From a virus: a stretch of DNA of 20,258 bases. Numbering within the stretch: the stretch's first letter is position 1; each line of letters begins with the position of its first letter. The position numbers were made by a program, and so were the translations under genes. The notes below the pieces were generated by a model. The model was not told where the DNA came from. It saw only the letters and a list, made by a program, of their open reading frames with translations, and did no database searches. The stretch lies in the IMG/VR virus record IMGVR_UViG_3300025853_000869, positions 1 to 20,258 of that record; one strand, given 5' to 3'. This document shows positions 662 through 6,385 of the stretch, piece by piece.

Positions 662-901
662 ATGGAAAATTTAATCAGGAAAATCGTCATCGGTCCCAAT
701 CCGAAGGATGCGATGGCGTACTACGTCGGCATGAAAGCTGGCGCAGGAAAGGTTGTTCTTATCGAGGAGGATGACCGCGCTATGTTCAAGTACAACATTC
801 GTAGGTACAACATCTACACTCAGGACAGTGAATCGTCCTACCTGTGGAAGACTGTGGAGAACACCCCGGTCATTGTTGAATACGATTGCAACTTTGAATG
901 A
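662..901 (+). CDS. Small conserved-looking phage protein of unknown function
   Basis: This 79-residue protein starts at the ATG four bases after the previous stop. Its TGA overlaps the next ATG (ATGA at 898-901), which points to translational coupling. The N-terminal segment 'KIVIGPNPKDAMAYYVG' is followed by 'VVLIEEDDRAMFKYNIRRYNIY' in shorter alternating strands, then 'YLWKTVENTPVIVEYDCNF'. The alternation of short hydrophobic strands suggests a compact alpha/beta or all-beta fold. There is no signal peptide or membrane segment. From memory, proteins with a G-x-N-P-K-D-(A/G)-M-A-Y start occur near terminase genes in phages of Bacteroidota, but I cannot verify that here and assign no function. 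Confidence 0.82.
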   Translation: MENLIRKIVIGPNPKDAMAYYVGMKAGAGKVVLIEEDDRAMFKYNIRRYNIYTQDSESSYLWKTVENTPVIVEYDCNFE

Positions 902-1488
902 AGGCGCTGTATCACTTCGTGGTGAAGCTTGAGAAGACTCATCACGACACCATCGAGCTGGAGAACGGCACGTCGCTCTACGTCGACCCTAAGTGGAAGG
1001 AGTTCGAGCGACGCGTCATGTACGGTGAGGTGACGTCAACCCCAGTCAAGTACGACGTGGATGTCAAGCCGGGAGACACCCTGTTTTTCCACCACCACGT
1101 AGTCATGTCTGATGCCTTGAAGATTCAGGTTGACGACGAGGACAGGTTCATTGTGGGGTACGACCCAGACAACACCCTTGGCTGCCATGCGATTGCTTAC
1201 CGAAGCAAGGATACTGGTGAGCTCCACATGCTTGCGGACTGGGTATTCCTTCAGCCACTCGAAGAAGAGGAACCAGAGGAGAGCGAGATTATCGTGGTTG
1301 ACCTCAAGCCCAAGACGCACCTCAAGGCGAAAGTGTTCTGCTGCCCCAAGGATATGATTACTCAGGGCGTAAAAGCAGGAGACATCGTTGGGTTCAAAAA
1401 GAACCGAGACTACGAGATGCGATTGGAAGATAACACCACCGTGTTTCGCATGCGCTCAGAAGAGATGATGTATGTCGAGGAAGCCTAA
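898..1488 (+). CDS. GroES-like co-chaperonin with two beta-barrel halves
   Basis: The 196-residue product has two stretches that each look like a GroES barrel. The first half (about 1-120) opens with 'ALYHFVVKLEK' and has a Gly-containing segment at 17-33 (ENGTSLYVDP) where GroES carries its GroEL-binding mobile loop. It continues with 'GEV...P...VKPGDTLFFHHHVV' (GD at 59-60) and ends with 'LADWVFLQP'. After an acidic linker (121-130), the second half has 'KAGDIVGFKKNRDYEMRL' (GD at 161-162) and 'FRMRSEEMMYVEE', closely resembling the GroES C-terminus. Standard GroES is about 95 residues, so this is a double-length form, and only the first half seems to keep a mobile loop. By analogy with T4 gp31, it would cap host GroEL so that virion proteins fold. 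It overlaps the next gene by 17 bases. Confidence in the family is moderate; the duplication is inferred. Confidence 0.7.
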   Translation: MKALYHFVVKLEKTHHDTIELENGTSLYVDPKWKEFERRVMYGEVTSTPVKYDVDVKPGDTLFFHHHVVMSDALKIQVDDEDRFIVGYDPDNTLGCHAIAYRSKDTGELHMLADWVFLQPLEEEEPEESEIIVVDLKPKTHLKAKVFCCPKDMITQGVKAGDIVGFKKNRDYEMRLEDNTTVFRMRSEEMMYVEEA

Positions 1489-1765
1489 GTTCGAGACCAT
1501 CGAGGCCTCTCGCAGGCTGATGGATAGCATGGCTATCGCAATCAACAATATGATTGAGGAGGTCAAGCGACCCGTCGACCCAGAGGCTGGTGGTGCTGCA
1601 CGCAAGGCTGAGCTTCAGTCCATCAAGCAGACCGCTACCGATTGCAAAGAACTGCTAATCGAAAGGCAGCGTCTGGAGCAGATGGTCAAGGACCTAAGCG
1701 AAAACGGAGCTATCGACGAAGCAAAGGATTACTCAGGCGGGTTTGCAGAAAGATTCAGTAAGTGA
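1472..1765 (+). CDS. Putative terminase small subunit (positional candidate)
   Basis: This 97-residue, strongly helical, charged protein is encoded immediately upstream of the large terminase, the usual place for the small subunit that recognises the packaging site and oligomerises into a ring. It begins inside the end of the co-chaperonin gene (17-base overlap), and its TGA overlaps the GTG of the terminase (GTGA). The sequence shows an N-terminal 'MSRKPKFETIEASRRL', then two likely long helices around 13-35 and 45-75 (AELQSIKQTATDCKELLIERQ) with heptad-like Leu/Ile spacing, and an acidic/Gly end. I do not see a clear helix-turn-helix, so the assignment rests on position, size and helical character. 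It could equally be another small packaging-associated protein. Confidence 0.5.
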   Translation: MSRKPKFETIEASRRLMDSMAIAINNMIEEVKRPVDPEAGGAARKAELQSIKQTATDCKELLIERQRLEQMVKDLSENGAIDEAKDYSGGFAERFSK

Positions 1766-3903
1766 CGGGGCTGGTAGACATAGAGAAGCACGACCAACCA
1801 GTCGTATCCATCTGCCCGCGCGGCACACTCGGGGAAGTCATTGACATCTCCGGGCTTCCTATCTGTCTGCCAAAGAAACCACCGAAGAAAGAGATTGCAG
1901 GCCACGACCTGCCGAACCACTTGCAGTGCTGGAACAGGAGCGAGATGCCATCTGAGCTTGCTCGCATCAAATCCATGGACGAGTGGTATGAAATGCCCAA
2001 GGAGTTTCGCCAGAGGTTCTCTCCCTTCATCGAGGAGGAGTTCCGTAGAAGGCGCGAGGGCTACTGGTTCTACAACAACGGAGAACCTACATACATCACT
2101 GGGCGTCACTACATGATGCTTCAGTGGAGCAAGATAGATATTGGCTATCCTAGTTTCCTAGACTTCCAACGGAAGCTCTTCATCCATCAGGCCGCGTGTG
2201 AGGCTGACCCCAGATGCCTTGGTCAACTGTATACCAAGTGTCGTCGCTCAGGGTACACGAACATGTCCGCCTGCGTTCTAGTTGATGAAGCCACACAGGT
2301 CAAGGACAAACTTTTGGGTATCCAGTCGAAGACGGGTAAGGACGCGCAGGAGAACGTCTTCATGAAGAAGGTCGTAGCTATCTTCAAGTCCTACCCGTTC
2401 TTCTTTAAGCCCATCCAAGACGGTACTACCAACCCGAGAATGGAGTTGGCGTTTAGAGAACCGTCTAAAAGGATTACCAAAAACAACAAGACCTCTGTCA
2501 AGGGCGACGCCCTGAACACAATCATTAACTGGAAAAACACCACGAACAATGCGTACGATGGTGAGAAGTTGCATATCTTGTATCTCGATGAGGCAGGCAA
2601 GTGGGAGAAACCAACAGACATTAGAGAAGCATGGAGGATACAACGGACTTGCTTGATTGTGGGACGCCGTGTTATCGGGAAGGCGCTTGTGGGCAGCACA
2701 GTCAACCCGATGGACAAAGGAGGTCAGGAATACAAAGAGCTTTGGAAAGATTCCGACCCACAAGAACGCAACAAAAACGGCAGGACAACCTCCGGATTGT
2801 ACAGAATCTTTATTCCGGCTTACGAAGCCTTAGAGGGATTCTTCGACAAGTACGGGAAGCCAATCATCGAGACTCCGGGACAGGAGGTGGAGACGCTGGA
2901 CGGGGAAACCGTAGAGATAGGCGCAAAGGAGTTTCTAAAAAACGAAAGGGAGGCTCTCAGGCATGATGCCCGGGAGATGAACGAGATTGTTCGTCAGTTC
3001 CCCTTCACCACAGACGAGGCGTTCCGAGATAGCGTCGAAGGCTCTCTGTTCAACATCGGAAAGATTTATGAGCAGATTGACCACAACGAGAACATGTACC
3101 CAGACCCCGTGGTGCGTGGAAACTTTACATGGAAAGGAGGCGTAAGGGACGGAGAGGTTGTGTTTGTTCCAAGCTCTGAGGGCAGGTGGTTCGTATCATG
3201 GATGCCTCCTGCAGACCTCAGGAACCTCAAGGTTTCCGAACGGGGCAAACGCATTGCGCCAAACAAACTCATTGGCTGTGGTGGTGTTGACTCTTACGAC
3301 ATCGACGCCACTACGGACGGGAGGGGCTCTAAGGGAGCGTGTCACATCTACAACAAATTCAACATGCGGGCCCCCTCTAACATGTTCGTTGCAGAGTACT
3401 GCTCCCGCCCTCCTATGGCAAAAATCTTCTACGAAGACATCCTGATGGCGGCTGTGTTCTACGGCTACCCGCTCCTCGTGGAGAACAATAAGTACGGCAT
3501 CGTAAGGTACTTTGAGTCAAGGGGTTACGACGGTTACTTACTGGACAGGCCTCAGCACCTCACCACCACAGGTTCTGTTGCAACCAAAACGAAAGGCATC
3601 CCGTCTAACTCACAGGATGTCATCCACACACATGCACAAGCGATTGAAGACTACATACACAACCATGTGGGAATCAATGAGAAAGGAGAGATTGGTAGGA
3701 TGTATTTTAACCGCACACTTGAGGACTGGATTGGTTACCGTATCGACAACCGCACGAAGTTTGACTTGACCATTAGCGCAGGTCTTGCATTGCTCGCAGC
3801 GCAGACTGTTGTGCAAAAGAAAAAGCCAGCTGATTTTACAGGTAAAAAATTCTTCCGCAAGTACACCTACACGCCCGGCGGGGTCTCCAAGCCCGCTAAG
3901 TGA
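1762..3903 (+). CDS. terL: Terminase large subunit (packaging ATPase-nuclease)
   Basis: This 713-residue protein pumps DNA into proheads and cuts concatemers. The GTG start at 1762 overlaps the upstream TGA; the next in-frame Met is near residue 62, so GTG is favoured. The ATPase part has a Walker A at 159-168, K-C-R-R-S-G-Y-T-N-M. The usual Lys after Gly is replaced by Tyr165, and a Lys sits at the front (K159), as in lambda gpA's deviant KSARVGYSKM. Walker B is 'ILYLDEAG' with D276-E277, and the coupling motif is 'ALVGSTVNP' near 308-316. The RNase H-like nuclease has 'GGVDSYDID' (D510, possibly D513/D515), 'LLVENNKYG' (E574) and 'KFDLTISAGLAL' (D668), giving the expected acidic set. The length is at the large end for the family and like that of crAss-like phages. 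A promoter follows directly. Confidence 0.97.
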   Translation: MTGLVDIEKHDQPVVSICPRGTLGEVIDISGLPICLPKKPPKKEIAGHDLPNHLQCWNRSEMPSELARIKSMDEWYEMPKEFRQRFSPFIEEEFRRRREGYWFYNNGEPTYITGRHYMMLQWSKIDIGYPSFLDFQRKLFIHQAACEADPRCLGQLYTKCRRSGYTNMSACVLVDEATQVKDKLLGIQSKTGKDAQENVFMKKVVAIFKSYPFFFKPIQDGTTNPRMELAFREPSKRITKNNKTSVKGDALNTIINWKNTTNNAYDGEKLHILYLDEAGKWEKPTDIREAWRIQRTCLIVGRRVIGKALVGSTVNPMDKGGQEYKELWKDSDPQERNKNGRTTSGLYRIFIPAYEALEGFFDKYGKPIIETPGQEVETLDGETVEIGAKEFLKNEREALRHDAREMNEIVRQFPFTTDEAFRDSVEGSLFNIGKIYEQIDHNENMYPDPVVRGNFTWKGGVRDGEVVFVPSSEGRWFVSWMPPADLRNLKVSERGKRIAPNKLIGCGGVDSYDIDATTDGRGSKGACHIYNKFNMRAPSNMFVAEYCSRPPMAKIFYEDILMAAVFYGYPLLVENNKYGIVRYFESRGYDGYLLDRPQHLTTTGSVATKTKGIPSNSQDVIHTHAQAIEDYIHNHVGINEKGEIGRMYFNRTLEDWIGYRIDNRTKFDLTISAGLALLAAQTVVQKKKPADFTGKKFFRKYTYTPGGVSKPAK

Positions 3904-3943: not shown

Positions 3944-6385
3944 ATGAAGGGTCACCATAAGCCAAAGTCGTATGCACAGTTCCCGGACCCAATGGCTCCG
4001 GCTTCCGTCAAAGCAAGCGAAGACTATGGCATTTCCTATGCTAAATCTATCGAGGCACAGTGGGGTGGTTTGGACGACTTTTCTACAGGCTTCGGTAAGC
4101 GCTTGGTAGAGTTCCAGCGCAACCGAGACTACGCCAACGGCACGCAGGATACCGCAGTCTACAAGCAGATTCTGAACAGCATGGACACCCAAGGCGGTGA
4201 CGGAACACTGCTGAACCTCGACTGGTCACCTGTACCAATCATCCCTAAGTTTGTTAGGATTGTAGTCAACAAGATTCTCTCTCGCAAGTTCCGCCCAAAC
4301 GTGGAGGCCATCGACCCGATGTCGAAGGACGAGAAGGAAAAGAAGAAGGTTCTGGCCAAGTTTGCTATTGAAGAAAGAGAGGTTATCGAGGAGGCAAAGT
4401 CTCTCGGCCTGAAGACAGCGAGCGTCCCCGAGGGGTTGCCTGACAACTCAGAGGAGGCTGAAATTTACTTGGCTGATAGTATCAAGACCAGTGCTGAGGT
4501 GGCAGCTCAACTTGCCACTAAGCTCACCCTCGACTGGAATGACTTTGATGACAACGTGTTCCGCCGCGCCGTGGAGGACCTCGTGGTCAACGGTATGGCT
4601 GTTGTCAAGAGGAGCAACGACCCTAGCTACGGAATCAAGACGGAGTATGTGGACCCAGCGCAGTTCATCCACTCCAGCACGGAAGACCCAAACTTCTCTG
4701 ACATCGTCTACGCAGGCCACGTCAAGCGTGTGTCGATTCAGGACCTGAAGCGCATGGCGGGTACAGACATCCCGGAGGAGGAGTACCAGAAGATTGCTAA
4801 GTCTGTGATGAACAGAAGCTACAACAACGCTTCCCAGTTCAATCAGACGGTGTACGACAGAAGCCGTGGCGCCCATGTCTACGGCTACGATGAATACTTG
4901 GTTGACGTCTTGGACTTCGAGTTCCTTGGCGTCGACGATATGATTTACGAGGAGAAGACCTCGCAGTTTGGAAACATTGGTTTCTACTACAAGGGCGAGA
5001 GCTACAAGCTGCCTAGCGACTCAGTGTACGACAGAAAGATTCACACCATGCCCAACATGTGCGTGTATGGTGGCTCGTATGTCATCGGTAGCGGGCTTCT
5101 CTTCAACTACGGCATGAAGCGGGACATCCCGAAGAACATGCACGACCTCACACGCGCTCGTCTTTCGTACAGCGTTGTGGCAACAAACTTCCGCCGTCAG
5201 ATGCCCAAGTCTATGGTGTCGTCTGTCATCGGCTTTGCTGACCAGCTTCAGCTGACCCACCTCAAGATTCAACAAGCCATTGCCAAGGCTAAGCCTGATG
5301 GTTTGATTGTGGACATCGAGGGTCTGGAGAATGTGTCTCTGGGCAACGGTGGAGAGCTTCAGCCTCTCGACATTCAGGACATCTACGAGCAGACAGGTGT
5401 CTTCTACTACAGAAGCAAGAACCCAGAGGGTGGATTCCAGAACCCGCCTGTGCGGCCACTGGACAATACCATTCGGAACATCAACGAGCTTATTGGTTTG
5501 TACAACCACTACCTCCGCATGATTCGTGATGTCACGGGTGTCAACGAGGTTCTTGACGGTAGCTCACCAAAGTCAGATGCCCTTGTGGGTGTGCGTCAGC
5601 AGCAGCTCGCTGCAGCCAACAACGCCATCAACGACATCACCAATGGCGCCTCTGTTCTGTACAAGAGAGTGTGTGAGGACGTGGTCAAGTGCCTTCAGGT
5701 CTTGCCCCCAGAGTCCATCATCTACGAGGCGTACGAAAGAGCCATCGGAAGCACGAGCATGGAAATTCTTTCTTCGTTTGCTTCTCTGCCACTTCACAAC
5801 TACGGTGTGATTGTTGAGCGAGAGATGTCAGATGAAGCCAAGTTGTTACTCGAACAAAACATCCAACAGTCACTTGCACAAAGAGAGATTGACCTTGAGG
5901 ATGCTATGGCAATCCGTCGTCTCAAGGATTTGGACCAAGCAGAAAGAGTCCTCATCATCCGACGCAAACGCCGCATCGCCTCGTTGCAGCAGCAACAGCA
6001 GCAGCAAATGCAAATGCAAGCACAGGTGAACATGCAGGCCCAGCAGGCCGCAGCACAGCTGCGTATGCAAGAGGTGCAGATGAAGGCGCAGGCTGACCTA
6101 CAGAAGATTCAGGCTCAGGGTCAGGTCGACATGCAGCTCCTGCAGATGCGTCAACAGGTGGAGGGTCAGATTCAAATGGCAAAGCTCCAGATGACGTCAC
6201 AGTTTCAGGCAGCAGACAAGCAGTTCCGCATGGACCTCGAGAAGAGCAAGGATGATAGAAAAGACTCACGCGTTGAGAAGCAAGCTGTGGCTCAGTCCAA
6301 GCTTATCTCTCAGCGCAAGGGTACACGCCCCGAACTTGAGGACCAAGACAACAGGGACATCATCCAAGAACTGATGAGACGATGA
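3944..6385 (+). CDS. Portal protein
   Basis: This 813-residue protein is the dodecameric DNA channel at the unique capsid vertex and the docking site for terminase and then the tail. Portal-like features include the N-terminal wing start, 'LDWSPVPIIPKFVRIVVNKI' near 88-107, the stretch 'FRRAVEDLVVNGMAVVK' near 206-222, and 'YVDPAQFIHSS' followed by 'YAGHVKRVSIQDLKRM'. A helical part around 'LIGLYNHYLRMIRDVTGVNE' would be the stem/clip-proximal region. After about residue 670 comes a long Gln/Met-rich coiled coil starting with seven Gln (682-688) and ending in a charged tail. This extension corresponds to a barrel or C-terminal tail inside the capsid. The location directly after terL fits. Its TGA overlaps the next ATG (ATGA). 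Confidence 0.92.
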   Translation: MKGHHKPKSYAQFPDPMAPASVKASEDYGISYAKSIEAQWGGLDDFSTGFGKRLVEFQRNRDYANGTQDTAVYKQILNSMDTQGGDGTLLNLDWSPVPIIPKFVRIVVNKILSRKFRPNVEAIDPMSKDEKEKKKVLAKFAIEEREVIEEAKSLGLKTASVPEGLPDNSEEAEIYLADSIKTSAEVAAQLATKLTLDWNDFDDNVFRRAVEDLVVNGMAVVKRSNDPSYGIKTEYVDPAQFIHSSTEDPNFSDIVYAGHVKRVSIQDLKRMAGTDIPEEEYQKIAKSVMNRSYNNASQFNQTVYDRSRGAHVYGYDEYLVDVLDFEFLGVDDMIYEEKTSQFGNIGFYYKGESYKLPSDSVYDRKIHTMPNMCVYGGSYVIGSGLLFNYGMKRDIPKNMHDLTRARLSYSVVATNFRRQMPKSMVSSVIGFADQLQLTHLKIQQAIAKAKPDGLIVDIEGLENVSLGNGGELQPLDIQDIYEQTGVFYYRSKNPEGGFQNPPVRPLDNTIRNINELIGLYNHYLRMIRDVTGVNEVLDGSSPKSDALVGVRQQQLAAANNAINDITNGASVLYKRVCEDVVKCLQVLPPESIIYEAYERAIGSTSMEILSSFASLPLHNYGVIVEREMSDEAKLLLEQNIQQSLAQREIDLEDAMAIRRLKDLDQAERVLIIRRKRRIASLQQQQQQQMQMQAQVNMQAQQAAAQLRMQEVQMKAQADLQKIQAQGQVDMQLLQMRQQVEGQIQMAKLQMTSQFQAADKQFRMDLEKSKDDRKDSRVEKQAVAQSKLISQRKGTRPELEDQDNRDIIQELMRR
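5987..6160 (+). repeat. Gln/Met-rich low-complexity segment in portal C-terminus
   Basis: CAG/CAA codons run seven in a row at 5987-6007, then continue as an imperfect Q-M-Q-A series that encodes a helical coiled coil in the portal protein. Mixed CAG and CAA codons argue for selection on the protein rather than simple slippage. Confidence 0.7.

Follow-up and report, generated by a model that had tools for sequence, protein, structure and literature searches.

The window analyzed here, the whole 20,258-nucleotide stretch of IMG/VR virus record IMGVR_UViG_3300025853_000869, carries a gene for a GroES-like protein of double length that sits within a head and packaging module. The features of this region, all on the plus strand, are as follows.

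662..901, plus strand: conserved small gene, 79 aa, overlapping the tandem gene by 4 bp and containing 'IRKI.IG...AMAYYVG...LWK...EYD'
898..1488, plus strand: predicted tandem (double-barrel) GroES-like co-chaperonin, 196 aa, from ORF, profile, fold, and codon evidence
898..1212, plus strand: predicted barrel 1 (residues ~1-105), GroES fold, diverged
928..1020, plus strand: putative mobile-loop position of barrel 1 (residues 11-41, 31 aa, 'GTSLYVDPKWKEF'), from model and alignment
1222..1485, plus strand: predicted barrel 2 (residues ~109-196), canonical Cpn10 match
1258..1323, plus strand: putative mobile-loop position of barrel 2 (residues 121-142), acidic and then 'EIIVVDL', from model and alignment
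1472..1765, plus strand: small helical-looking gene, 97 aa, ending in 'GGFAERFSK', between the tandem gene and the gene for the terminase large subunit (TerL)
1762..3903, plus strand: terminase large subunit (phrog_6681, E = 1e-209)
3944..6385, plus strand: portal protein (phrog_6547, E = 2e-192)

The reading frame at 898-1488 is uninterrupted between its ATG and its stop codon and specifies 196 amino acids, twice the length of GroES, as the initial annotation had stated. Its product has more than 100 homologues, and the differences from the gene of one relative (L013) fall 10/3/61 at codon positions 1/2/3, and of the codons that differ 58 are synonymous and 12 nonsynonymous; this is a genuine coding gene under strong purifying selection. 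The two GD cores claimed for the product can be read from the sequence (G59-D60 in 'KPGDTLFF' and G161-D162 in 'KAGDIVGF'), and G59, D60, and G161 are invariant across 14 homologues. Its reported placement beside the terminase is also correct, TerL being the next gene but one downstream.

An AlphaFold model of the full 196-aa chain, computed with 59 homologues as input, reached a pLDDT of 90.6 and a pTM of 0.84, and in it a series of six strands is repeated with its order unchanged (7-10/115-120, 42-47/143-148, 61-64/163-166, 75-78/172-175, 81-86/181-186, and 98-102/190-194). When the full chain was compared with the PDB by Foldseek, the sole match below 1e-3 was 7ekq_R (labelled Cpn20; 207 columns, TM-scores of 0.57/0.58), and single GroES chains gave a TMq of only ~0.3 against the tandem model. 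The TM-score above 0.5 across both barrels suggests that their relative placement in the model is roughly Cpn20-like, not identical (rmsd of 6 Å).

Folded alone, the N-terminal half had GroES (8wuw_a) as its best Foldseek match (probability of 1.00, TM-scores of 0.52/0.58), followed by a second GroES and thereafter by low-probability matches only. Against a GroES profile made from Bacteroidota, E. coli, and phage sequences, the profile of this half scored 40.8 (E = 2.9e-7), compared with a maximum of 16.0 among 60 column-shuffled controls, and the profile of the C-terminal half gave an E value of 2.6e-15. Barrel 2 is matched by Pfam Cpn10 over residues 109-183 at 25.4 bits, above the curated cutoff of 21.1; its profile finds GroES in the PDB (E = 8e-7), and the single-barrel GroES family phrog_3188 has its match confined to residues 109-195. 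Barrel 1 falls below the Pfam Cpn10 cutoff, and a PDB search with its own profile returned zero matches. Cpn10 was matched at E ≤ 0.1 in 36 of 62 C-terminal halves and in only 1 of 62 N-terminal halves, and by sequence the kinship of barrel 1 to GroES is detected by profile-profile comparison only. Aligned with each other by hhalign, the halves show a weak direct repeat (probability of 38, P = 3e-4); in terms of sequence profiles, their homology is clearer via GroES than by direct comparison. The initial annotation had proposed two GroES barrels in one chain, to be checked by comparing each half with GroES separately, and both halves match by fold or profile. A single unrelated fold, or a match limited to the C-terminal part, was not seen and is ruled out by the GroES fold and profile matches of the N-terminal half. 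From model and profiles, the protein is predicted to be two GroES-type barrels joined head to tail.

In the tree, the homologues fall into two clades split by one well-supported branch (96/96), here called the window clade and the elemo-like/Pervagoviridae clade, and the putative mobile loops differ between them. The barrel 1 loop, 31 aa in this protein, is ~7 residues longer than that of E. coli GroES (~24 by our own count), and its length is 29 to 32 aa in every one of 62 non-redundant homologues. The barrel 2 loop of this protein has 22 residues (GroES, ~24), contains 'SEIIVVDL', and covers the residues of lowest confidence in the AlphaFold model (121-142; pLDDT of 68 to 75). Most close relatives have 'EEVTDSGIIV' or similar at this position, and the GroES glycines absent from this protein's barrel 2 loop are present in relatives. 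Within the window clade this loop has 22 to 28 residues with a GroES-like 'SGII' motif in most, whereas in the elemo-like clade it is shortened to 15 to 21 residues (15 to 17 in most). Candidate hydrophobic tripeptides are LYV in the 31-aa loop and IIV in the 22-aa loop.

As judged from alignment and model, this protein has two candidate mobile loops, one per barrel. The earlier view that only the first half carries such a loop therefore fails for this protein, with its 22-residue barrel 2 loop, and holds for the elemo-like clade. That tandem rings would make half the usual number of GroEL contacts, as had been proposed, is not a necessary consequence, given that each barrel has a candidate loop. 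What had been taken for an acidic linker between the barrels (~121-132) is instead the mobile-loop position of barrel 2; the acidic stretch was rejected as the joint since the first strand of barrel 2 (115-120) precedes it, which places the joint at ~103-108. The missing roof hairpin was considered as a gp31-like specialization and dropped, because Bacteroidota host GroES is also short there and the trait is not distinctive.

The surroundings of the gene are conserved as well. At 61 of the 61 non-redundant loci with enough sequence, the tandem gene is followed on its own strand by terminase, within 1.5 kb at 59 of them. Immediately 5' of the tandem gene, nearly all homologous loci have a gene of ~72-84 aa ('IRKI.IG...AM.YxVG...WK...EY'); the product of 662-901 had no convincing match in PHROG and could be a partner of the tandem. 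A gene of the 97-aa type occupies the gap between the tandem gene and TerL in most loci. The TerL of phi38:1 and of the elemo phages is extended at its N terminus by ~165 residues that contain 'RGFAEKF' or 'RGYPEKF' (L049, 8582-11221; L051, 5540-8170), and this sequence likeness suggests that in these phages the 97-aa gene product is fused to the TerL N terminus. The gene at 1472-1765 is a small-terminase candidate.

The protein belongs with PHROG 13932, "co-chaperonin GroES," which matches residues 1-194 of 196 (E = 3.3e-34) and has members in Cellulophaga phages phi38:1 and phi18:3, Flavobacterium elemo phages, and Maribacter phage Panino. These members are full-length homologues with terminase adjoining, but the window clade is a divergent branch at ~25% identity, and they are annotated merely as GroES or cpn10, not as tandem proteins. 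The gene is carried by a large set of Bacteroidota phages; the homologues as a whole come from IMG/VR contigs and from cultured phages of Cellulophaga, Flavobacterium, and Maribacter, and the core genes of the Pervagoviridae include a "chaperonin cpn10" (PMC8776804). The GroES label for the family in databases and the existence of tandem lids in plastids are already known. No paper describing the tandem architecture of these phage proteins was found in the open-access literature searched, within which the phage tandem form and its coexistence with separate phage GroES and GroEL appear to be undescribed. The tandem marks particular lineages and does not accompany this terminase everywhere: Tenacibaculum phage Gundel_1 and the two crAss-like phages examined lack it, despite their related terminases. 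A crAss-like 178-aa protein upstream of the terminase is not a tandem. In BFVD, the 304-residue viral protein A0A516L046 matches the whole tandem, and its additional 100 residues might be a further domain.

The Cpn20 of chloroplasts and apicoplasts likewise has two GroES barrels head to tail in ~195 residues, and the Chlamydomonas chain in 7ekq (chain R), the top full-length structural match in the PDB, has ~13% identity to the phage protein in the structural alignment. Unlike Cpn20, the phage protein shows in barrel 1 a lengthened loop and, following GD, an 'HH' motif, and in place of the features of the plastid lineage (nuclear gene, transit peptide, Cpn60 partner) it has a phage gene near terminase and portal. 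The tandem was probably fused independently of Cpn20, with no organellar link; the protein works like Cpn20 at most and is not classed as Cpn20. Capping by a tandem chain, which the initial annotation had called unusual, is not unprecedented, since Cpn20 from the chloroplast and the Plasmodium apicoplast is functional with GroEL (PMC5780408). Cpn20 forms tetramers, the Plasmodium protein substitutes for GroES in E. coli, concatemers of six to eight GroES domains are functional with GroEL, and in chloroplasts the native lid is probably a hetero-oligomer with seven barrels (PMC5780408).

Among phage lids, T4 gp31 has a longer loop than GroES (22 residues versus 16) and no roof and accommodates and folds the capsid protein gp23 (PMC6318259). 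Like gp31, the tandem would be a phage-encoded lid of GroES fold, and its long barrel 1 loop recalls that of gp31, but gp31 is a single barrel (~110 residues) forming a homoheptamer, whereas the tandem has two barrels in 196 aa; the gp31 structure 1g31_A matches the tandem model weakly (E = 0.34). Bacteroidota host GroES and phage single-barrel GroES match the barrel 2 profile (E of ~1e-10 to 1e-15) but have one barrel per chain. Many Bacteroidota genomes (including L206 and L207) have a second GroES-like protein of ~125-180 residues beside the canonical GroES.

Searches for GroEL (PF00118) and GroES (PF00166) covered whole records, and the two clades were compared on records of at least 50 kb. 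Neither groEL nor a separate groES was found in any of the nine such records of the window clade, an absence that is provisional because the records are mostly fragments, the window itself being a 20-kb fragment. The nine records of the elemo-like/Pervagoviridae clade have, in addition to the tandem, groEL in eight and a separate single-barrel groES in all nine; phi18:3 has a separate GroES without GroEL. The difference in groEL is significant by Fisher's test (P = 4e-4), but the tree requires just one change, and the contrast is not independent support because it amounts to one evolutionary gain or loss. Loss of the barrel 2 loop tracks groEL imperfectly, as phi38:1-like phages with groEL and/or a separate groES keep the loop. 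Since phage groEL and groES are co-resident with it, the tandem of the elemo-like/Pervagoviridae clade would be an extra co-chaperonin accompanying a bona fide GroES; in the window clade, where the searches turned up no phage GroEL, its target would have to be host GroEL.

Two details of these chaperonin genes may be recorded here. The elemo-like clade and Panino have groEL followed by groES (L209, L210, L212, L215, L216, and L218-L220), the reverse of the usual bacterial order, and phi38:1 (L213) has the usual order. A 72.8-kb phi38:1-like record (G017, the contig of L136) has a single GroES (27433-27675) and a tandem, with GroEL undetectable.

We interpret the protein as a phage co-chaperonin with two GroES barrels in a Cpn20-like architecture that would cap GroEL to fold phage proteins, and we assign this reading a probability of about 0.6. 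Several tandem copies would assemble into a GroES-like ring, the ring would cap a GroEL ring through its mobile loops, and the capped GroEL would help to fold phage capsid, portal, or terminase; that the clients may be capsid or terminase we infer from gene position. In the window clade the lid would be paired with host GroEL, and in the elemo-like/Pervagoviridae clade the tandem may be an additional, specialized lid or lid subunit. Because the GroEL ring has seven sites and the tandem gives barrels in pairs, a mismatch or a mixed lid is expected: either three or four tandems with one site or barrel unmatched, or three tandems plus one single GroES, making seven. In this last arrangement the single GroES would be the phage's own in the elemo-like/Pervagoviridae clade and the host's in the window clade, and phage GroEL, or a hijacked host GroEL, would thereby receive an asymmetric cap specific to the phage. 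Such a lid would fit the sevenfold symmetry and account for the single GroES kept alongside the tandem; we put it forward tentatively, as a minority possibility.

Several points speak against a lid role, namely, the strong divergence of barrel 1 and the barrel 2 loop without GroES glycines, and, given the dedicated phage GroES of the sister clade, the tandem there could have a different job. The location next to terminase is also compatible with a role in packaging. A GroES-derived double barrel that has lost GroEL capping might serve head assembly or packaging, for instance by acting on terminase or portal as an adaptor or chaperone, and this would suit the downstream terminase at 61 of 61 loci with room, the cassette of small protein, tandem, small helical protein, TerL, and portal kept across divergent phages, and the elemo-like clade's own groES and groEL and shortened barrel 2 loop. 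We nevertheless regard it as rather unlikely: Cpn10-like sequence is retained in barrel 2, the window clade has kept both loop positions, a function cannot be read from gene position alone, and Gundel_1 has a related TerL without the tandem. Moreover, the phi18:3 tandem is annotated by similarity only, whereas MS/MS data underlie the annotation of the adjoining portal and tail proteins. The same contrast bears on a virion structural protein built on a GroES-like fold, a role suggested by the position of the gene within the structural and packaging module; as sequence and profile similarity also points to co-chaperonins and not to virion proteins, this seems the least probable of all.

Phages commonly encode factors that redirect host machinery, and the mixed or degenerate loops might befit a tandem that acts on the host GroEL-GroES cycle as a modulator or poison, for instance one that blocks GroES, instead of folding phage proteins. 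This too is very improbable, if marginally less so than a virion role, for phages with their own groEL retain the tandem, the gene sits in the head and packaging module, and gp31, a related phage lid, acts productively (PMC6318259).

Tandem GroES lids pose a symmetry puzzle, that of paired barrels on a sevenfold GroEL, which work to date has addressed using the proteins of chloroplasts and apicoplasts. Phages seem to possess their own version of the tandem lid, and the database labels that name these proteins plain GroES are hereby corrected. Because the carriers include cultured phages (phi38:1, phi18:3, the elemo phages, and Panino), some of them with full groEL and groES elsewhere in the genome, the question of why a phage would have two co-chaperonins is directly testable.
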